Source of the DNA: a virus
Strand: one strand, 5' to 3'
Virus record (IMG/VR): IMGVR_UViG_3300018083_000114
Location: 1 to 23,430 of that record
Length of the DNA: 23,430 nucleotides
In this document: piece by piece, positions 12,446 to 22,863 of the stretch
Numbering within the stretch: the first letter of the stretch is position 1
Layout of the letters: each line of letters starts with the position of its first letter
Made by a program: the position numbers and the translations under genes
The notes under the pieces: generated by a model
What the model was told of the DNA's origin: nothing
Databases searched by the model: none
What the model saw: only the letters and a program-made list of their open reading frames with translations

Positions 12446-12842
12446 ATATTAACCCAGAAGAAAACCCAATCGTAAAACCACCTTCCAACTGTTCCACGTA
12501 CTCCCCACCGCTTTCAGTCTCGATACTTAAATATCCCTTTCTTCCTATCTCTGTTACTGAGATGATGTTGTAAGGAATACCATCACAAACAATCCTGTTT
12601 TTTGGAGTGATGTCATCCCGATAACGGCACGTAAACTCTACATTCAAAAAATCCGTGAGTTTATCCGCCCGATAAGACTCATTCCCTCTGCGTTCATTTT
12701 TACTAGCCCAAACAGTTGGATTAATACCTATACTCTCCCATCCTGACTCTTCATCTTCGTTAGACTCGTTCTCACCTACAACCTTATATTGAAAGGTTAT
12801 ACGCCTATCGAGTCTGCCAATTTGTTCTTTAGTGTTAAGCAT
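12426..12842 (-). CDS. Head closure / head-tail adaptor protein
   Basis: 138 aa. The start 'IGRLDRRITFQYKVVGENES' is the signature opening of SPP1 gp16-like head closure proteins ('G.LdrRItiq...'), followed by 'WASKNERRGNESYRADKLTD' and 'TCRYRDDITPKNRIVCDGIPYNIISV', the family's 'f..Ry..di...~ri...g..Y.I..v' pattern. It plugs the connector after DNA filling and receives the tail. The ATG at 12842 lies inside the end of the upstream glycosyltransferase gene (46-nt overlap); no later Met precedes the conserved start, so this start is kept. Confidence 0.85.
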   Translation of the reverse strand: MLNTKEQIGRLDRRITFQYKVVGENESNEDEESGWESIGINPTVWASKNERRGNESYRADKLTDFLNVEFTCRYRDDITPKNRIVCDGIPYNIISVTEIGRKGYLSIETESGGEYVEQLEGGFTIGFSSGLIYDFSYW

Positions 12843-13516
12843 TGGATAGCGTTTATCTCTTCGTTGCTCAGTCCATTAAGAGCTTGTTCTAGTGAATATT
12901 CACTACCTAACTTTTCAAAAGGCCAAATATTAACGTCACTCTTTAACCCTATGGCTACCGGTTCGCTTGTTGCAATTCTCTTTTCTAAAAAACCCTTCCT
13001 GGCCATTATCATCGTAGAGTTGTTGTCTAACCCTTTGTTGATGTTATCCGGCCAAATAGTTCCTACTGCCTGGAGTGCCTTCTTAGAGATTGCCCTACCC
13101 GTTCCAAAGTATGCGTGATGCTTAGTCATACGCCTGCATTCCCCCGTTCTCGTGTCCATCATAATGAAGTCTGAAAGCGCCATTATATCCCGGTCCCAGT
13201 TGTACAGGTTTAGGAACTCATCTTTAAAAAGGTCATCCGAACCAATCTCAACCAGATAGTCAAAATCTTTTCTTAATGCCTGACTTATCCCGTAGTTTTT
13301 CTTAGCTCCCAGCGGATCATTCTTAGTAAAGCACCAATCAACCCCATACTTTTCGCAAAGTGGTATCATTGACTCTTCAGAAATTACCGCCAGTACTTGG
13401 ATGTTAAAACCCGGAACTTTGCGGAGTCTGGAGATGCCCATAAAACATATTTCAGTTATCACGGGCCGTTTCCAGACTGCCACAAAGAACAATAGCTTAA
13501 TAGCAGTATTCTGCAT
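12797..13516 (-). CDS. GT-A-like glycosyltransferase inside the head-neck gene block
   Basis: 239 aa. It opens with a beta strand and 'WKRPVITEI', then 'NDPLGAKKN' (66-74) and 'DYLVEIGSDDLF' (about 86-97), where GSDD fits the metal-binding DxD region of GT-A enzymes. A C-terminal 'VAIGLKSDVNIWPFEK' follows. The motifs and their spacing are shared with the gene at 20405-21193 (NNPLGFKWN, FVGSSDW, STNLWPQK), so the two are paralogues. It overlaps the connector gene by 20 nt and the head closure gene by 46 nt, so it is made with virion proteins. Donor and acceptor are unknown: a virion protein or a host glycan could be modified. Glycosyltransferase fold is well supported; the target is inference. 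Confidence 0.72.
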   Translation of the reverse strand: MQNTAIKLLFFVAVWKRPVITEICFMGISRLRKVPGFNIQVLAVISEESMIPLCEKYGVDWCFTKNDPLGAKKNYGISQALRKDFDYLVEIGSDDLFKDEFLNLYNWDRDIMALSDFIMMDTRTGECRRMTKHHAYFGTGRAISKKALQAVGTIWPDNINKGLDNNSTMIMARKGFLEKRIATSEPVAIGLKSDVNIWPFEKLGSEYSLEQALNGLSNEEINAIQCLTLKNKLADSIGV

Positions 13517-15640: not shown

Positions 15641-16319
15641 TTTTTAATTGTGATTGCATTTGTAAATACTTATTTAGATTCGGGTCAGGCCCGGAAATTT
15701 CTTTATGGCATAGAGCCTCAATTATTTCTTCTTTTTCTTCTTTGGAAAGTTGCTCCAGGTCTGAAATAATACGGGACTTTCTAAGTGCTGCTGGATCTGC
15801 TGGAATGTGCACTATACTCCACTCTACAAGTGACTGACCAGGGAAATTCAGTAGATAATCCGTGATTTCTTTCTTGTCATTTCGAATTACTTCTGACTTG
15901 ATCGGTCCCGTAGGAAGAACTCCAACAGAGGAGGAGTTAAGAGAGCCGAAAATGATCTTTCTAAAAACTTTGTCTGCAGTGGCGTTCAGTTCAGCAGGTT
16001 CGAAAGTAACTTTGCTCATTACAACTTTCTTTCCTTTAAATGTATCCATCCATGCCGTTGCTTTTCCTATTACGTCATCAGGATTAGGAGGTAAGAACAT
16101 ATTATCACCATATAGATTATGCTGATAACCTACAATAGGGTTAGAGTTGAAACTATCTAAGTCCCAAGAGTCCCAATTGTAAATAAATTTGTTCCTATGG
16201 CTTCTTCCTGTGGCTTCAGAGGCTATAACGAAAGTTATCTCCCGTGTTGATTCAACAGTCTCTTTCTCTATTTGAGCTTCAAATGTTGATCGATGATATT
16301 TAATTGACGTGGTGTCCAT
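15621..16319 (-). CDS. Prohead maturation serine protease (HK97 gp4-like, U35 family)
   Basis: 232 aa. 'FVIASEATGRSHRNKFIYNW' opens the fold, 'FNSNPIVGYQHN' holds the likely catalytic His, 'IFGSLNSSSVGVLP' the likely catalytic Ser, and 'LVEWSIVHIPADPAALR' is the conserved 'L.EvS.V..PAnp.A' strand of the family. It cleaves the capsid scaffolding domain inside the prohead. It lies between portal and capsid, as in HK97, and overlaps both by 20 nt. The C-terminus (SQLKNGQIKK) is encoded by the 14-bp element that precedes the capsid start. Confidence 0.92.
   Translation of the reverse strand: MDTTSIKYHRSTFEAQIEKETVESTREITFVIASEATGRSHRNKFIYNWDSWDLDSFNSNPIVGYQHNLYGDNMFLPPNPDDVIGKATAWMDTFKGKKVVMSKVTFEPAELNATADKVFRKIIFGSLNSSSVGVLPTGPIKSEVIRNDKKEITDYLLNFPGQSLVEWSIVHIPADPAALRKSRIISDLEQLSKEEKEEIIEALCHKEISGPDPNLNKYLQMQSQLKNGQIKK
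15641..15654 (-). promoter_or_regulatory. Shared 14-bp leader element (copy before major capsid gene)
   Basis: ATCACAATTAAAAA on the minus strand, abutting the capsid ATG. The same 14 bases precede the major tail gene. In both places the element is also coding: it gives Ser-Gln-Leu-Lys at the C-terminus of two unrelated upstream proteins, which suggests selection on the nucleotides. An enhancer of translation initiation is the simplest reading; a promoter is an alternative. Confidence 0.45.
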
Positions 16320-17565
16320 TTAATTTTGATATTGGTGCTGTTGGTATTACTTCAGTCTCCATTTTCTTCCTTAGTGCTTCAATCCCCTCCTCATCACCCA
16401 TCGTCATGGCCCCTTGAATTAAAGGCACTTCTCCACCCTTGTAAGGATTCAAATCTTCGTATTCACGAGCCTCATTTCGAGTCATCACGCCAGTATTAAC
16501 CATAGATTGATAGAATGATTGTCTCGACGCGATATCCCCGCGAAGCAGGCCGTTCATATTAAATTTCGTGTATGTGTTAGCCTTCTCCTTTTCGAAGAAT
16601 AGCTTCATGTTGTTCTCTAATTCTAGATTTCTACAGATAGGAGTAACAGTGTGTTTAGCGTAGACTAGATCCATCTGCTCCGCATTTGAAAAAGTGGATC
16701 TTTCCAGGTCCTGTACGAACTGTGGAGGCATCTGCCAAATCCCCAGCAGGTCGGTTTTGTTCTGTCTCTTGGAGATAGCGAAAGCGCTTTCATCAGCAGT
16801 GCTCATTAGCTGCTGATACTTGAACCCACCGTCTAAAACTCTAACGTCGCCAGCCCTGGCCCCCTGCCATGCGTTTTTATTTTGCGTTTTCTGCTCTGGA
16901 GTTAATGACTTCTCGGTACTTAGAATCCCCGGAGGCTGTATACCCATTAAAATTGCCGAGTACCGATCTAACTTTAGAGCCATACCTATAGTATTGGCGT
17001 TTTCCATCACTGGCGACCGTCCACAGACACCATCCCACGAATAAAATCGGTAGTGAAGCACATTCCTTCCAGGAACCTGATCGCCGTTGTAGGTGTAAAA
17101 TACATCTCCGTCCTCGAATGTTATAGTAACTTCCCATGGCTCCCATATATGCAGAGCTACCGGATTCTGTCTTGAGTCCCGCTGAATGAAAGCGTATGCG
17201 TTACCCCAAATGTCAACATGGAGCATTAAAGTCTTCCAGAAATTAGCCGCCGTCATATACGAATTGGGCTGATCGTGAAGCAGGTAATAAGCGTAATGAT
17301 CTACTAGAATTTCCTTCTTCCCTTTGCTTTCTTCAATGACACTACAGGGAAGGGAAGCTATAGTATTACCGCGAACGTTGACTGCGGAGTAGATAGTAGG
17401 ATTCTTTAACGCCGTCCTAGGGGTTACTACTTCATCGGTGAAATTATCAGTTGAATAAAACGAGTTAATTATACCCGCCCTGACATCCATAATAGCGTCG
17501 TACCAATTACTTTTGGATGTCTCCCAAATATTATCGTTAAACCACTTTTGCAGTTTCCCCGGCAT
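16300..17565 (-). CDS. Portal protein (HK97 gp3-like)
   Basis: 421 aa from the ATG at 17565; an upstream in-frame TTG at 17619 would add 18 residues, but the sequence from 'MPGKLQKWFNDNIW' on is the expected start. Portal marks are 'NPTIYSAVNVRGNTIASLPC', 'HDQPNSYMTAANFWKTLMLH', 'GNAYAFIQRD', 'HYRFYSWDGVCGRSPV' and 'SNAEQMDLVYAKHTVTPICR'. It forms the dodecameric DNA channel at one capsid vertex and contacts terminase. It is the first gene of the head operon after the terminator region and is divergent from the 58-aa plus-strand gene. A promoter for it is expected between 17566 and 17652; no clear TAnnTTTG (-7) box was found. Confidence 0.93.
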   Translation of the reverse strand: MPGKLQKWFNDNIWETSKSNWYDAIMDVRAGIINSFYSTDNFTDEVVTPRTALKNPTIYSAVNVRGNTIASLPCSVIEESKGKKEILVDHYAYYLLHDQPNSYMTAANFWKTLMLHVDIWGNAYAFIQRDSRQNPVALHIWEPWEVTITFEDGDVFYTYNGDQVPGRNVLHYRFYSWDGVCGRSPVMENANTIGMALKLDRYSAILMGIQPPGILSTEKSLTPEQKTQNKNAWQGARAGDVRVLDGGFKYQQLMSTADESAFAISKRQNKTDLLGIWQMPPQFVQDLERSTFSNAEQMDLVYAKHTVTPICRNLELENNMKLFFEKEKANTYTKFNMNGLLRGDIASRQSFYQSMVNTGVMTRNEAREYEDLNPYKGGEVPLIQGAMTMGDEEGIEALRKKMETEVIPTAPISKLNGHHVN

Positions 17566-17652
17566 AATTGCCGTGAATGAGGAAATTTTTTCCAGTGTTA
17601 CTGTGGTAAGAATTACCAAATTTGGATAAATTGCCTAAACCTTACGTTAAAT

Positions 17653-17829
17653 ATGGCTAAAACCCTGTTCGAAGTTTTCAACGAAGACTTTTCTAAGGAG
17701 ATAAAAAAAGCAAGGAACTATCCAGAAGCATACGAAAAAGCTACCGAAAAATTTGAGCTAAATCATGGCTTCACTCCTTTCAATTCATACGAAACATTCA
17801 GGAGGAAAAAGAAAAAGCCCCGTGATTAG
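17653..17829 (+). CDS. Small plus-strand hypothetical protein (58 aa)
   Basis: The only supported plus-strand gene. ATG 17653 to TAG 17829 encodes a 58-aa, highly charged protein beginning MAKTLFEVFNEDFSKEIKKA, with 'YPEAYEKATEKFELNHGF' and a basic tail 'RRKKKKPRD'. The Tyr/Phe-Glu-Lys spacing reads like a helical pair with good coding character, and I recall similar short proteins in Bacteroidota phages and prophages, but no function is known to me. It is divergent from portal and convergent with the amidotransferase gene, and its stop codon falls in the loop of the terminator hairpin at 17814-17838. It may be transcribed apart from the late block; the palindrome CCAAATTTGG lies about 28 nt upstream. 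Confidence 0.6.
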   Translation: MAKTLFEVFNEDFSKEIKKARNYPEAYEKATEKFELNHGFTPFNSYETFRRKKKKPRD

Positions 17830-17838: not shown

Positions 17839-17942
17839 CTTTGATTAGTTTGGGGTCTTCCAACCCCGCGTCCGAGCCTTGCGGCTATGTTCCTTCGCGC
17901 CGGATTGCGGCATGCGCTTTTACAAATATAAAAAATCGTGCC
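17839..17942. other. Intergenic stretch with three consecutive GC-rich hairpins
   Basis: No open frame is supported. Three inverted repeats follow each other: GGGGT/ACCCC (17852-17867), AGCC/GGCT with a 4-nt loop (17875-17886), and GCGC/GCGC enclosing a shorter stem (17897-17917), the last followed on the plus strand by TTTT. It is GC-rich against AT-rich flanks. It could be a compound terminator, a small structured RNA or a processing site. It does not fold as a tRNA by eye. Confidence 0.4.
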
Positions 17943-19064
17943 CTATTTACAATATTTGTGATATGCAGTCGTTGGGAACACTCCCAGCTTAGTCAACAAC
18001 CATAAAACAGGCTTCCATGCTTTGTAATTATACCCGCCGTATATCTTGCGTTCACGTATTGGCGACATATCAGCGAGTCTTAATATACGATCTTTGTCAG
18101 GTCCAAGTAAGTCAAGATTAAATTCGCTCTTGTCTTCCAGAAATTCTCTCGCTTGAAACTTTGTTAAGGTTCCTTCACGGATTTGAGCTGATAGATAGGT
18201 TTTACGTTTGTCAATGTGAAACTTTCTTGGTAATAGATGCCCTCCAACGTACCAAGTATAAATGTTTTCGGTATGCTTCGCACCGTAGGACTGCCAGCCC
18301 CAAGCGTATAGTTGATTGAGTATAGGTCCTCGATCAATCTTCTCATAGTGGAACGGCCTGATTTGTTTTATGCCTAAAATCCCTGCCCATATTTGGTGCC
18401 ATATGGTTAATATAGGATAATTCTGTAGTTTCTGGCCAGAATACAGCGTGTAAATATTGGAAAGGTACTTGCCGTCTATGCGCGACCACTTCGCCGGGCT
18501 AGATCCTTCCTCCCTGAATGAATGGCCGTTGAAAATGTACTTTATACCGTATTGCTTGCAGGCCTGATCCATCAACCGGGCCATGATTACGTCATTAGTT
18601 ATGTCAGCATCAGGAACACCCGCCCAAAGTAGCGAATCGTTGATCGTGTCGTATTCTTTTTTATTTGTAAAGTACCGGATGAAGTCTACACTAAGATTTT
18701 TTACAAGTACCGATATATTATTATTTGCTTCCGGAACGTTCCAATGATTATCAAAGTGAATGACTAGCGGTCTAAGGCCCCATACTTTAACCGTTAAATA
18801 CAGTAAAATACTGGAGTCTTCCCCGCCACTGATACCAACTAAACAATCATATTTTTTACCTTTGCCCTTCTTTTTAATCCGGTCCACTACGTTAATAAAC
18901 GGTTCCCGCGCCTGATTTCTTAGCTGTCCCTGGAGTTTACAATATTCGCAAATCCCGTCGTCGTGGATCTTTGCAAATGACGAATCGAACAGGCATGTTT
19001 TGCACTCCGTCTTGTGTCGAAGTTGTTGGATTTTAAGGGTGAGTTCTTGAGCTAAGTTTTTCAT
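17943..19064 (-). CDS. N-acetyl-sugar amidotransferase (PseA/WbpG-like, PP-loop ATPase)
   Basis: 373 aa from the ATG at 19064, which overlaps the upstream stop as ATGA; an ATG four codons earlier (19076) is the alternative, and residue numbers here count from it. A zinc-ribbon of four Cys (CKTC near 25-28, CEYC near 43-46) precedes the PP-loop 'VGISGGEDSS' (SGGxDS, 83-88). Further family marks are 'NGHSFREEG' (183-191), 'YAWGWQSYGAKHTENIYTWY' and 'LPRKFHIDKRKTYLSAQI'. The family uses ATP to activate a sugar N-acetyl group and ammonia from glutamine to make an acetamidino sugar, as in pseudaminic acid derivatives or LPS amino-uronates. No HisH/HisF-like partner is visible in the window. It is the last gene of the cassette after the large terminase. 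Family assignment is strong; the sugar substrate is unknown. Confidence 0.85.
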   Translation of the reverse strand: MKNLAQELTLKIQQLRHKTECKTCLFDSSFAKIHDDGICEYCKLQGQLRNQAREPFINVVDRIKKKGKGKKYDCLVGISGGEDSSILLYLTVKVWGLRPLVIHFDNHWNVPEANNNISVLVKNLSVDFIRYFTNKKEYDTINDSLLWAGVPDADITNDVIMARLMDQACKQYGIKYIFNGHSFREEGSSPAKWSRIDGKYLSNIYTLYSGQKLQNYPILTIWHQIWAGILGIKQIRPFHYEKIDRGPILNQLYAWGWQSYGAKHTENIYTWYVGGHLLPRKFHIDKRKTYLSAQIREGTLTKFQAREFLEDKSEFNLDLLGPDKDRILRLADMSPIRERKIYGGYNYKAWKPVLWLLTKLGVFPTTAYHKYCK

Positions 19065-19792
19065 ATGTTTAACCATTCATGTTTATGATCCAGATTACGC
19101 CAAACCTTTTCAGCTAAATTAACACTTCGATGTCCGATAAATTGAGTCTCATCTTCAATCGCTTTCACTACGTCGTTTATAGAATCCCAAGGTATGCAGT
19201 TTGGTAAATCGAAAACATTAGTTACCACCTTCAACCCACGCAATCCCATTTCTATTATCGTACCGCCACCCCCTGCAAATTCAGAAAGACACAATCCAAT
19301 ATAGCAATCTTTGTAATGAAAATCTCCTATTCCGTTTCTCCATTGTGCTTGTGTAAAGGTTCCATCACCAATTAAAATCTCATAACCTCCACACCGTAGT
19401 TCGTCGATGATTTTTTTTCCGTGATAGTCTGGCGCTGATGCCGGGCAATAGGCGTAGATCTTTTTACCCAGTACTTGTGGTTTCTGCTCATTAAGGAATG
19501 CAGCCGGTTTTACTAATTTGCAATCCTCATCAAATGATAAAATACGTTTGGCAACTTTCGGATGAGCCGTGACGTTCCTGTGAGGAAAATCATTTGAATC
19601 TAAAGCATCCTGACCAGTCCAAAACACTGTCTGTTGCCCGTGGTGCATAGCCGCTAATGTAAAGTCTTCATATCGGTACATTCCAAAAAATACACAAGGA
19701 TTACCAAGGCAATTATAATCATCCAACTTATAAACCTCATGAAAGGGAAAATCCATTACGCTTTTACTGACATAGCCTTGAGATATCCTCAT
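19061..19792 (-). CDS. GT-B-like glycosyltransferase
   Basis: 243 aa. The C-terminal half reads as a GT-B nucleotide-sugar domain: 'KKIYAYCPASAPDYHGKKII' strand and helix, 'GGYEILIGDGTFTQ', 'YKDCYIGLCLSEFAGGGGTI' with the Gly-rich/acidic 'EFAGGGGTIIEM' loop and 'GLKVVTNVFDLPNCIPW'. The N-terminal half is short, so it is a compact or partial GT-B enzyme. The present start is ATG 19792, which falls just after the inserted HNH gene; the ancestral start may be the ATG at 20408, giving MKTSK joined to ISQGYVSKSV if the insert is removed. The end overlaps the amidotransferase start as ATGA, so the two are co-translated. Glycosyltransferase is inferred from fold marks; donor and acceptor are unknown. 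Confidence 0.65.
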   Translation of the reverse strand: MRISQGYVSKSVMDFPFHEVYKLDDYNCLGNPCVFFGMYRYEDFTLAAMHHGQQTVFWTGQDALDSNDFPHRNVTAHPKVAKRILSFDEDCKLVKPAAFLNEQKPQVLGKKIYAYCPASAPDYHGKKIIDELRCGGYEILIGDGTFTQAQWRNGIGDFHYKDCYIGLCLSEFAGGGGTIIEMGLRGLKVVTNVFDLPNCIPWDSINDVVKAIEDETQFIGHRSVNLAEKVWRNLDHKHEWLNI

Positions 19793-20318
19793 GGTATATT
19801 GATTTGAATCTTTGTTTGAAAATATTTTCAGGCTTAATAATTAAATCAACGTCATTAAGACAAGCAAATTCACCGTGATGTATTTTTGCGGCAATATTGT
19901 AGGCTTCGGCCGCTTCGCATTCTCTTTTGAAATACCCTAGCTCTATTGTTTTGCCATGCGAAAAAATCTTTGACCTCCAACGCCCAACCGATTTGTTAAA
20001 ATTGATTCCTTTGTAAATGGATTTGGCGGATTTTTTAAGTTTTCGCGAGTTCCTTATGTTTTCAGCAAACGTACAAATCCTTAAATTAGACTTACTGTTA
20101 TTTAATACGTTATGATCCTTATGGTCAACTATCCCGGTTGGATTACCCATTATTAACCTGTGTAAATTAACCTGTTTACCTTTAGAATCTTTAGATACAA
20201 CGTAGTGCCTATCTTGCCTACCTCCACCAATATGCCACCGATAATGTTTTACTAACTCATAATCCTCATCATCAATAATAGCGTAGTTAACTTTCCTTGT
20301 GTTTAATTTTAATTCCAT
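19764..20318 (-). CDS. HNH homing endonuclease with AP2 DNA-binding domain
   Basis: 184 aa from the ATG at 20318. 'IIDDEDYELVKHYRWHI' is the usual N-terminal fold of phage HNH proteins, 'VNLHRLIMG', 'IVDHKDHNVLNNSKSNLRIC' give the HNH motif, and 'SIYKGINFNKSVGRWRSKIF', 'GYFKRECEAAEAYNIAAKIH' and 'GEFACLN' form an AP2 domain. It makes a DNA break that spreads the element to allelic sites. An in-frame upstream ATG (20408) would add 30 residues (MKTSKICLVILCLLHFRAVG...) that do not look like HNH sequence; these are more likely the 5' end of the interrupted glycosyltransferase gene plus element leader. It overlaps the start of the next gene by 29 nt. Confidence 0.85.
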   Translation of the reverse strand: MELKLNTRKVNYAIIDDEDYELVKHYRWHIGGGRQDRHYVVSKDSKGKQVNLHRLIMGNPTGIVDHKDHNVLNNSKSNLRICTFAENIRNSRKLKKSAKSIYKGINFNKSVGRWRSKIFSHGKTIELGYFKRECEAAEAYNIAAKIHHGEFACLNDVDLIIKPENIFKQRFKSIYHEDISRLCQ

Positions 20319-20328
20319 AAAAAATGTA

Positions 20329-20389
20329 GCCCCGCTAAACTGTGGCGTTCCAACAGCACGAAAGTGCAAGAGGCACAGAATAACGAGGC
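20329..20389 (-). other. Nested inverted repeats at the 5' edge of the HNH element
   Basis: Three nested pairs are visible on the minus strand: GCCTCG with CGGGGC (one U-G pair), then CTGTG with CACAG, then GCAC with GTGC around a 4-nt loop. On the plus strand the inner loop reads GAAA, but the outer stem then has a C-A mismatch. It lies between the ATG at 20408 and the HNH start, and may be an intron or element leader RNA or a translational control of the endonuclease. No ribozyme core was identified. Confidence 0.4.
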
Positions 20390-20404
20390 ATATTTTTGAT
20401 GTTT

Positions 20405-21193
20405 TCATTTGTCAGAACGCACTTCTAATGTACACAACGATTTTATTAGTTCCAATGCCTCAGGAAAGTTTTGTAATAGAAACTCCTCTACATTATATAA
20501 CTTCTTGCTAGGAAGTATTCCTAAATAATGGTCAGCGAATTTATGTTTCTGTGGCCATAGGTTAGTGGATAGGCTCAAAGCAACTATGTTTTTATTGTCT
20601 ACAAGGTGTATACGGGCTGCATGTATACTGCTAATGTCCTGCATAGAATTGTCTAAACTACTCTCTAAACGCTCTTTAAACGGTTTGAACTGTATACGGT
20701 CTAACAGTTGCCGGCCGAGCATCCGCCCAATGCCGATACTTTCGCCCCTCCGTTGATTTATATATCCCGGCCAACAGCATAAAAGCGGATCTTCACAGAC
20801 GTGAAGTAGGTGCATTCCAGGAACGCCGACTAAATCGTAACTTTCTAAATAGGGCCGCATGATCGGAATCCAATTATCTGAAAGCCAATCAGAGCTTCCC
20901 ACGAATAAGCAAGCATCAGGGTCAAACTGTCGCGCAGCTTCAAAACTTTTATTCCATTTAAACCCTAGCGGATTATTCCTGGCCTGTACCCACACTGCCC
21001 CGGCACGTTCACAGACTTCCCGGTCTTTAGGATCGTGCCCTGCACAAATTACTTTATAACATCCGTTCTTTTCGTACAGTCTACGAATTGTAAGTTCCAA
21101 CAATGGAAGCCTACCTAGTACAGCAAGACAAGCCACAACCCTAAATTGTGGAGGCTGTGCCATTCCTAAATCGTCATCGGGGTTTATTCTCAT
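20405..21193 (-). CDS. GT-A-like glycosyltransferase downstream of large terminase
   Basis: 262 aa from ATG 21193, three bases after the terminase stop; an in-frame TTG at 21202 is less likely. 'RVVACLAVLGRLPLLELTIRR' (written here as the first strand and helix), 'NNPLGFKWN' (73-81) and 'ACLFVGSSDWLSDNW' (about 94-108) match the GT-A pattern seen in the gene at 12797-13516, and 'NIVALSLSTNLWPQKHKF' parallels that gene's C-terminal 'VAIGLKSDVNIWPFEK'. The metal-site region is S-S-D-W instead of S-D-D. Its stop overlaps the ATG at 20408 as ATGA. It is the first gene of the sugar cassette. Target unknown; host surface or virion glycosylation are the main options. Confidence 0.7.
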   Translation of the reverse strand: MRINPDDDLGMAQPPQFRVVACLAVLGRLPLLELTIRRLYEKNGCYKVICAGHDPKDREVCERAGAVWVQARNNPLGFKWNKSFEAARQFDPDACLFVGSSDWLSDNWIPIMRPYLESYDLVGVPGMHLLHVCEDPLLCCWPGYINQRRGESIGIGRMLGRQLLDRIQFKPFKERLESSLDNSMQDISSIHAARIHLVDNKNIVALSLSTNLWPQKHKFADHYLGILPSKKLYNVEEFLLQNFPEALELIKSLCTLEVRSDK

Positions 21194-21195
21194 AT

Positions 21196-22863
21196 TTACC
21201 AAATATCTACGGTTGCCGGTCCTCCCTCATTTGCAAGTACTGATCGCCATTGACTCCACGCATTCAGACAAGCATAAATTCCTAGTACTTTACCGTTCTT
21301 TTCTATCCTTGTTCCTGATTCCTTACGTACAGCCAGACAGTTAGAGTTATGCATCTTTAGAATCGGATTGTTAAAATGTTCTACTTGTCCAGACCTTAGT
21401 GCTTTCTCCCATTCACCAGTAGCGTCTGCGATGCCAGCCATCCCCTGGCTGATTGGGTTACCCTCATATCCTAGCTTAATTAATCCCTGTACTATGCTGT
21501 TATTCTTTTGGGTGTTTGGGAAACAGAACGAGTGTAAATTATACCTTTGAAACTCTTCTACTATCCACCTAATAGCTACCTCATTTTCAACCTCATTACC
21601 TGGATCCACTTTAATAAATTGTTGGTTATCCCTGTAGAAGTCGTTTAGTTTTAGAGCCTCGCCAGCGATCCAAAAGGTCATTTTAATTGATGTGGTTTCA
21701 CGTGGAAACAGCAAAGCTAGTGCGCTGATTTCTCCAGATGGTCCAATCTCTAAACCACCGTAACAAGAGTCGCCATCCTCTACGGTTTCGCCGTGGCTGT
21801 TGGTATCCCAAATCTCCCCGGATATAAAAACCTCAGGAGAGTCTACCCACATATTAAAGTTTAGAGTCTTGACGTCTGTCTCGGTTCTCCCACCGTAGGT
21901 GACGGCGTCTGATACCATGCCCCTGAGGAACTCACGGTTGACGGATACGTCCAGGTTTGGGTTACATTTATGCCAGTTCTTTTCATCTTTCCAGTCATCG
22001 CCTTCGTCCATTTCGTAAATGATCGGTAGGTAATTGTCTTTAATAACTGTCCCTTCCAATACCTGTATCCCCACCTTTCTAAGTTCCTGGAAACATGGCC
22101 CGTCCATATTGAAACCAGCAGTCGTAATGTAGAACATGAGACGCTCTTTACGGGAGGCCATTGAGGTCTTAATAGACTTCGACGCCCCGTGATCCGGCGA
22201 CATTCCAAACTCATCCACGATTCCAAGCGACGCATTAACGCCATGCTTACCGCCTGCCGTCTTGCTCTTTTTGTCAGATGTTTCCTTGGAAAACGCTTTG
22301 ATAAAACCATTTTTGTCGGTGTTTACAATCTCAGTTATGTTATCCTTGTAGTTAAATATTCTTAAACTCCCTTCATCGACTAGTTCTTTAAGATCCGGCG
22401 AAGCCTCGATAATCCGACCCGCCATGTTTACACATATCTTTGCCTGATCCTCGTTATTAGCTGCCGTAAATACTTTAGGTGTGTTTACTTTATCCGCTAT
22501 CAAATGGAAGTCTGACAGCACCGCACACATAGAACTTTTACCGTTCTTCTTTGCCACCTGCACGTAAACCTCGTCAAACCTACGCGTCTTTGAATCAGTC
22601 CGGTACCATCCGAATATTTGCTGAAATATAAACCACTGCCACGGCTGCCACTTAATTAAAATCCCCTGGAAGTCACCCTCCCATTGATAGCAATACCGCT
22701 CCCCAAAGATGGGCATACGCGACCCTTCAACCTCATCGAAGTAAATGTCTTCTCGTTTTAAATCTGATAGGAAACGTTTGGCGGCAAGTTTAACCAGGTT
22801 CCCCGTTAGGTGAATGTTGGAATGGGACAGAACCCAGTTAGCGTATGATTCAGCGGCGCTCAT
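21196..22863 (-). CDS. Terminase large subunit
   Basis: 555 aa. The ATPase part has a Walker A-like 'VAKKNGKSS' (104-111), 'VFTAANNEDQAKICVNMAGR' and a Walker B 'SLGIVDEFG' (212-220), then a coupling 'ITTAG'. The nuclease part starts at 'CYGGLEIGPSGEISALALLF' (368-387) and ends with 'VEHFNNPILKMHNSNCLAV' and 'TRIEKNGKVLGIYACLNAW' (519-536). The protein cuts and translocates the genome into the prohead through the portal. Two positions normally Asp in the HK97/lambda-type nuclease (GLD, RID) appear as Glu372 and Glu521. Its ATG overlaps the preceding small gene as ATGA. Confidence 0.95.
   Translation of the reverse strand: MSAAESYANWVLSHSNIHLTGNLVKLAAKRFLSDLKREDIYFDEVEGSRMPIFGERYCYQWEGDFQGILIKWQPWQWFIFQQIFGWYRTDSKTRRFDEVYVQVAKKNGKSSMCAVLSDFHLIADKVNTPKVFTAANNEDQAKICVNMAGRIIEASPDLKELVDEGSLRIFNYKDNITEIVNTDKNGFIKAFSKETSDKKSKTAGGKHGVNASLGIVDEFGMSPDHGASKSIKTSMASRKERLMFYITTAGFNMDGPCFQELRKVGIQVLEGTVIKDNYLPIIYEMDEGDDWKDEKNWHKCNPNLDVSVNREFLRGMVSDAVTYGGRTETDVKTLNFNMWVDSPEVFISGEIWDTNSHGETVEDGDSCYGGLEIGPSGEISALALLFPRETTSIKMTFWIAGEALKLNDFYRDNQQFIKVDPGNEVENEVAIRWIVEEFQRYNLHSFCFPNTQKNNSIVQGLIKLGYEGNPISQGMAGIADATGEWEKALRSGQVEHFNNPILKMHNSNCLAVRKESGTRIEKNGKVLGIYACLNAWSQWRSVLANEGGPATVDIW

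Follow-up and report, generated by a model that had tools for sequence, protein, structure and literature searches.

A sugar-modification cassette is encoded on the minus strand of the window analysed here, the whole of a 23,430-base stretch of DNA that constitutes an IMG/VR virus record (IMGVR_UViG_3300018083_000114). The cassette lies between the genes for the large terminase subunit (terL) and the portal protein and comprises a GT-A-fold glycosyltransferase (GTA), a GT-B-like protein (GTB) and an N-acetyl-sugar amidotransferase (NASAT; here AMT). The enzyme families, their conservation, their linkage and their co-location with packaging genes are supported by sequence or predicted structure. 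The reading that we favour, with a probability of roughly 0.45, is that the cassette adds an amidino-sugar glycan to the virion late in infection. A first-pass annotation of the same DNA had proposed a group of sugar-modifying enzymes, among them an amidotransferase of the WbpG/PseA type, working on a host-made precursor; that much is well supported by the sequence comparisons that follow, while its preferred acceptor, the host surface, is reconsidered below.

The amidotransferase and its glycosyltransferases

AMT (373 residues; 17943-19064, minus strand) matches the WbuX profile TIGR03573 with an E-value of 6.4e-43 (147.5 bits; profile positions 4-315 of 344). The zinc tetracysteine (C25, C28, C43 and C46; GICEYC in the window) is invariant in a 12-sequence alignment, as is the PP-loop motif SGG.DSS (SGGEDSS in the window), so that the zinc-ribbon cysteines and PP-loop are as intact as they had first appeared; the [GN] position of the tetracysteine motif CXXC...[GN]XCXXC varies in many relatives. 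SGGxDS and the zinc tetracysteine characterise the NASAT family in the LpNASAT structure paper (PMC10607449). Window AMT is 25-32% identical to the six bacterial sequences used, and the phage homologue L008 reaches up to 36-38% identity to bacterial proteins annotated as N-acetyl sugar amidotransferases. Collinearity with the bacterial NASATs extends over the full length, including the WxxYGGKHxEN...LPxKFxIDKR region, and the phage sequences form a clade separate from the six bacterial ones. By alignment, then, AMT is a full-length relative of the bacterial WbpG/WbuX enzymes.

The sugar and the ammonia that such an enzyme requires would have to come from elsewhere. Neither the window nor any of 13 related records yields an epimerase (PF01370) or a sugar aminotransferase (PF01041), and the earlier remark that sugar-synthesis enzymes are missing is thus confirmed for the two families tested. 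Nor do 13 phage records contain a GATase (PF00117) or His_biosynth (PF00977) domain, for which all 14 control genomes are positive. The absence of sugar-synthesis and glutaminase genes is accordingly supported at the level of gene content, and on that basis the phage enzyme probably takes its ammonia either free or from a host partner and acts on an N-acetyl sugar that the host makes. Of the bacterial AMT loci, five of six have hisH nearby and four have a HisF-type partner within the stretch shown; such partners are customary in bacteria, though the family is not strictly defined by them. A homologue on a plasmid of Agrobacterium sp. RAC06 (L142, 2866-4143), whose neighbours are asnB and a gene resembling a formyltransferase, lacks a hisH gene in the segment shown and shares with the phage proteins a C-terminal extension ending in KYC, which makes a partner-independent subfamily possible.

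GTA (262 residues; 20405-21193, minus strand) is supported as a GT-A-fold glycosyltransferase by its AlphaFold model, which has a predicted local distance difference test (pLDDT) of 91 and whose top Foldseek matches in the PDB are glycosyltransferases (E 1.7e-7). Among the viral proteins of BFVD it comes closest to one of the GTA type from an uncultured Caudovirales phage (template modelling (TM) score 0.81 by query length, 42% identity). The window protein has no significant Pfam match, and 11 of 24 relatives weakly reach Glycos_transf_2. An SSDW motif is invariant in the family, as is a late aspartate, D181, which may be the late catalytic residue. The GT-B assignment of the middle protein (GTB, 243 residues; 19061-19792, minus strand) is weaker: its model has a pLDDT of 71, and the best Foldseek match is SdgB (E 8e-4, TM 0.42), with a Rickettsia glycosyltransferase and Asp1/Gap among the other, weaker top matches. 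GTB belongs to no Pfam and no PHROG family, and Foldseek and hidden Markov model (HMM) searches for its closest enzyme gave no specific answer. Of the two glycosyltransferases originally proposed, therefore, the GT-A member is well backed by its model and the GT-B member less so. None of the three cassette proteins has a membrane segment (maximum 19-residue hydropathy 1.6).

A second GT-A-like gene (12797-13516, minus strand) is found inside the head-tail connector genes, between a gp6-like connector and a head-completion gene. It scores 36.9 bits against the GTA-family HMM (E 1.5e-13 when this sequence alone is searched) and matches the GTA of a related phage, G006, by blastp (E 2.5e-8); possibly it acts in the same glycan pathway as the cassette.

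Conservation and linkage among uncultured phages

A scan of viral contigs with AMT yielded 58 loci, and with the family alignment 188, of which the best 80 were kept. GTA lies just upstream of AMT in 62 of the 62 loci, among these 80 distinct ones, that have at least 1.8 kb of upstream sequence; since the loci were selected by AMT, this is a measure of linkage, not of frequency. Frequency was assessed separately with the main-clade large terminase, through its 80 closest relatives (identity of 87% or more): AMT is present in all 47 with at least 1.5 kb upstream and GTA in all 31 with at least 3.3 kb upstream, which makes the cassette core in that freshwater lineage. The middle position is far less constant. 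It is occupied by GTB at 49 loci (the window included), by an S-adenosylmethionine methyltransferase at 13 and by another glycosyltransferase-like gene at one; it is empty at nine, and at five (L039, L041, L043, L099 and L110) only a 27-residue 3' remnant of GTB separates GTA from AMT, a visible gene loss. The state of this position changes 12 times by parsimony on the AMT tree (43 rows). Thus GTA and AMT constitute a fixed core with a swapped middle enzyme. The co-occurrence of AMT with both glycosyltransferases that the first-pass annotation envisaged holds for GTA, GTB being variable, swapped or absent in some loci, and degraded copies are confined to GTB, none having been seen for GTA or AMT.

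The large terminase beside the cassette is of four dissimilar kinds: HK97-like in the window and in its close relative L002, Terminase_6N in the main clade, Terminase_3 in G006 and G007, and a protein with a Terminase_3/6N match in L003. Blastp detects at most one weak match (E 5e-4) between any two of these. Further glycosyltransferase-like genes flank the G006 cassette on both sides. Other genes of the main-clade phage (G002; L129/L130) specify a DNA methylase and an HNH_3 endonuclease, and one further protein of this phage shows weak McrBC-like similarity.

Comparison with L002, whose AMT is 79% and TerL 89% identical to the window's and whose cassette likewise lies between terL and portal, points to purifying selection on the cassette genes. 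Pairwise (NG86) nonsynonymous and synonymous substitution rates (dN/dS) are 0.395/2.299 for GTA (~0.17), 0.227/2.222 for GTB (~0.10) and 0.086/1.094 for TerL, these ratios being rough because dS is high; for AMT dS is saturated and dN is 0.176. On the combined evidence of the low GTA and GTB ratios and of a GTA/AMT pair in every testable relative, the cassette is not a chance assemblage.

No relative of AMT, GTA or GTB is found among 50,697 cultured-phage records, and a literature search turned up no relevant paper, consistent with the initial impression that no phage system with this set has been described. Bacterial genome contigs yielded no close AMT relative with the patterns used. As judged from contig sequences, the cassette is widespread and conserved in uncultured freshwater phages. 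In the window, the tail protein (1155 residues) has matches in Cellulophaga and Flavobacterium phages only, and an 801-residue structural protein of the other clade has them only in Cellulophaga and Elizabethkingia phages; these matches and the scarcity of Shine-Dalgarno-like sites make a Bacteroidota host likely for both clades. Scans of genome contigs found no portal relative, so bacterial genomes supply no host name.

Layout of the locus and an inserted endonuclease gene

The terL, cassette and portal genes all lie on the minus strand, with the cassette, whose coordinates were correct as first annotated, between terL (21196-22863; HK97-like, PF03354/PF20441) and the portal gene (16300-17619; PF04860). 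The GTA start codon (ATG, 21193) is 2 nucleotides past the terL stop codon, and the AMT start (19064) overlaps the GTB stop in an ATGA; a longer reading of AMT would begin at 19076. The three enzyme open reading frames (ORFs) are open and intact, as the original description of a co-translated three-gene set implied. They do not form an uninterrupted run, because a fourth ORF (19764-20408, minus strand), which that description had overlooked, sits between GTA and GTB; it encodes an HNH homing endonuclease that carries an AP2-like domain. This ORF matches PHROG_99 (HNH endonuclease; E 2.4e-34) and, in Pfam, HNH_3 (E 1.5e-4, below cut-off) and AP2 (E 0.004). It starts with the ATG at 20408, in an ATGA overlap with the stop codon of GTA (an alternative ATG is at 20318), and its 3' end overlaps the GTB start (19792).

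L002 lacks the HNH gene: its GTB begins within the end of GTA, at the very junction that the HNH ORF occupies in the window, where both neighbours remain open. On this comparison the HNH gene is an insertion. Truncation of GTB by the insertion is ruled out, GTB starting at the equivalent ATG in L002 (MRITQGYVSKS versus MRISQGYVSKS). A structured RNA or intron around the gene was also considered and rejected; Rfam gave no notable match, and in L002 each of the neighbouring genes runs on without a break, so that a free-standing homing endonuclease is a sufficient explanation. The ORF resembles other free-standing HNH/AP2 endonucleases (PHROG_99) and would be an ordinary mobile gene outside the function of the cassette. 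In L002 a 112-residue ORF (L002:2373-2711, plus strand), absent from the window, lies between terL and GTA, indicating that this gap accepts further insertions.

The stretch between AMT and portal carries a small plus-strand ORF of 58 residues (17653-17829) and can be aligned with L002. Hairpin-like sequence and a TATATTTG box resembling a Bacteroidota promoter element are found at ~17860-17940; scans for sigma-70-like promoters and terminators gave no excess over shuffled sequence.

The acceptor: virion, host surface or DNA

In the mechanism that we infer, in respect of reaction, sugar, ammonia source, late expression and acceptor alike, the cassette would be a late-expressed phage glycan module. 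GTA would move a host-made N-acetylated sugar from its nucleotide donor onto the acceptor, and the enzyme encoded between GTA and AMT, which is GT-B in the window and a methyltransferase in other phages, would extend or cap the glycan. AMT would activate the N-acetyl oxygen with ATP and swap in ammonia, generating a positively charged acetamidino group. The acceptor would most likely be a virion protein, and progeny particles would thus bear a short amidino-sugar glycan. Virion decoration is ranked ahead of host-surface recoding because an integrase (PF00589) is found in none of 14 records (some possibly incomplete), because the enzymes appear to be soluble and because they are placed among late genes. 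The first-pass annotation had put host-surface recoding first; the order is reversed here in view of the 2-nucleotide gap to terL, the four dissimilar terminases, the core status of the cassette in one lineage (47/47) and, again, the lack of an integrase. The further GT-A genes, among the head genes of the window and around the G006 cassette, also count in favour of the virion.

Several considerations weigh on the other side. The AMT score lies below the TIGR03573 trusted cut-off of 203.2 bits, which is exceeded in none of the 13 related records. The bacterial AMTs examined reside in polysaccharide clusters with hisH and hisF2; the phages do not have these partners, and the phage enzyme may not be active without them. 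Soluble cytoplasmic glycosyltransferases also make lipopolysaccharide (LPS) core and flagellin glycans. The case for a virion protein as acceptor draws on late-gene location, which is circumstantial, and nearness to late genes may reflect the timing of expression alone.

Recoding of the host surface is the strongest competitor, although we consider it less likely than virion decoration. On this view the targets of GTA, GTB and AMT in the infected cell would be its LPS core, its O-antigen or a surface glycoprotein; released progeny would then avoid re-adsorbing to debris, and rival phages would be kept from adsorbing. Known bacterial AMTs do work in O-antigen pathways (PMC10607449 and the bacterial loci examined here), the prophage genes epaA and epaB change capsular pseudaminic acid in Acinetobacter (PMC12053666), and a Campylobacter phage protein binds acetamidino-pseudaminic acid (PMC4690887). 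High turnover of the middle gene also fits a shifting surface recognition. On the other hand, lysogenic conversion is improbable for phages lacking an integrase, a position among late genes leaves little time for surface remodelling, the cassette proteins have no membrane segment, and sugars would differ between hosts, yet the GTA/AMT pair is invariant.

Two further proposals are decidedly less probable. In the first, amidino-sugar glycosylation is tied to DNA packaging itself, and particles would mature only if a positively charged glycan were attached either to a protein (packaging, portal or capsid) or to the DNA being packaged; this would explain why GTA and AMT are found beside four dissimilar terminases and are never missing in one lineage. 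In the second, AMT has drifted to another PP-loop reaction (thiolation, for example, or a different amide ligation), yielding a non-amidino glycan or a small molecule. The sub-threshold TIGR03573 score, the missing HisH/HisF2 partners and the extension ending in KYC are compatible with such drift; full-length collinearity and the retained tetracysteine argue against it, as does a KYC-type segment in the Agrobacterium homologue, itself annotated as an N-acetyl sugar amidotransferase.

Least probable of all is DNA hypermodification, in which the glycosyltransferases would decorate modified bases and AMT would shift the charge of the glycan, protecting DNA in packaging or infection: virus-encoded glycosyltransferases can assemble complex glycans on DNA (Pyle 2024, as cited in PMC12619734) and the cassette adjoins terminase in every lineage examined, but thymidylate synthase/dCMP hydroxymethylase (PF00303) is found in none of the 14 records (some possibly incomplete), as against nine of 14 control genomes, while a Tet/JBP search, positive in no control genome, is uninformative.

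The closest known enzymes are those of the NASAT family (WbpG, WbuX, LpNASAT (PDB 8WEX) and PseA; TIGR03573), which AMT resembles in its SGGxDS PP-loop, zinc tetracysteine, collinearity and nearby glycosyltransferases; AMT differs in being phage-encoded, in lacking a HisH glutaminase and HisF2/AglZ, and in keeping company with packaging genes instead of an O-antigen cluster. P22 GtrABC and Acinetobacter EpaA/EpaB are likewise phage genes that change a sugar or glycan already made by the host. Those systems belong to prophages, and Gtr works through membrane proteins; in contrast with Gtr-like lysogenic conversion, the cassette enzymes are predicted to be soluble and are found in phages without a detected integrase. 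We know of no amidotransferase in mycobacteriophage virion glycosylation. That system (Che8 type) is otherwise a precedent for virion decoration, its phage glycosyltransferases being thought to act on particle proteins and its glycans having been shown on capsid proteins (Freeman 2023, as cited in PMC11256854); the host is unrelated, and the glycosylation genes of mycobacteriophage Maravista lie near the 3' end of the genome, not beside terminase.

Phage glycosyltransferases and bacterial NASATs are thus both known, whereas their fixed pairing in phages beside packaging genes is, to our knowledge, undescribed. The cassette constitutes a conserved, apparently core sugar-chemistry module of uncultured freshwater phages, unseen in cultured collections and in PHROGs. 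Should its product be carried by the virion, we know of no earlier example of a phage particle bearing an amidino-sugar glycan, and phage glycobiology would gain a charge-changing step. The cassette also provides a concrete set of enzymes with which to ask whether the acceptor is the virion, the host surface or DNA.

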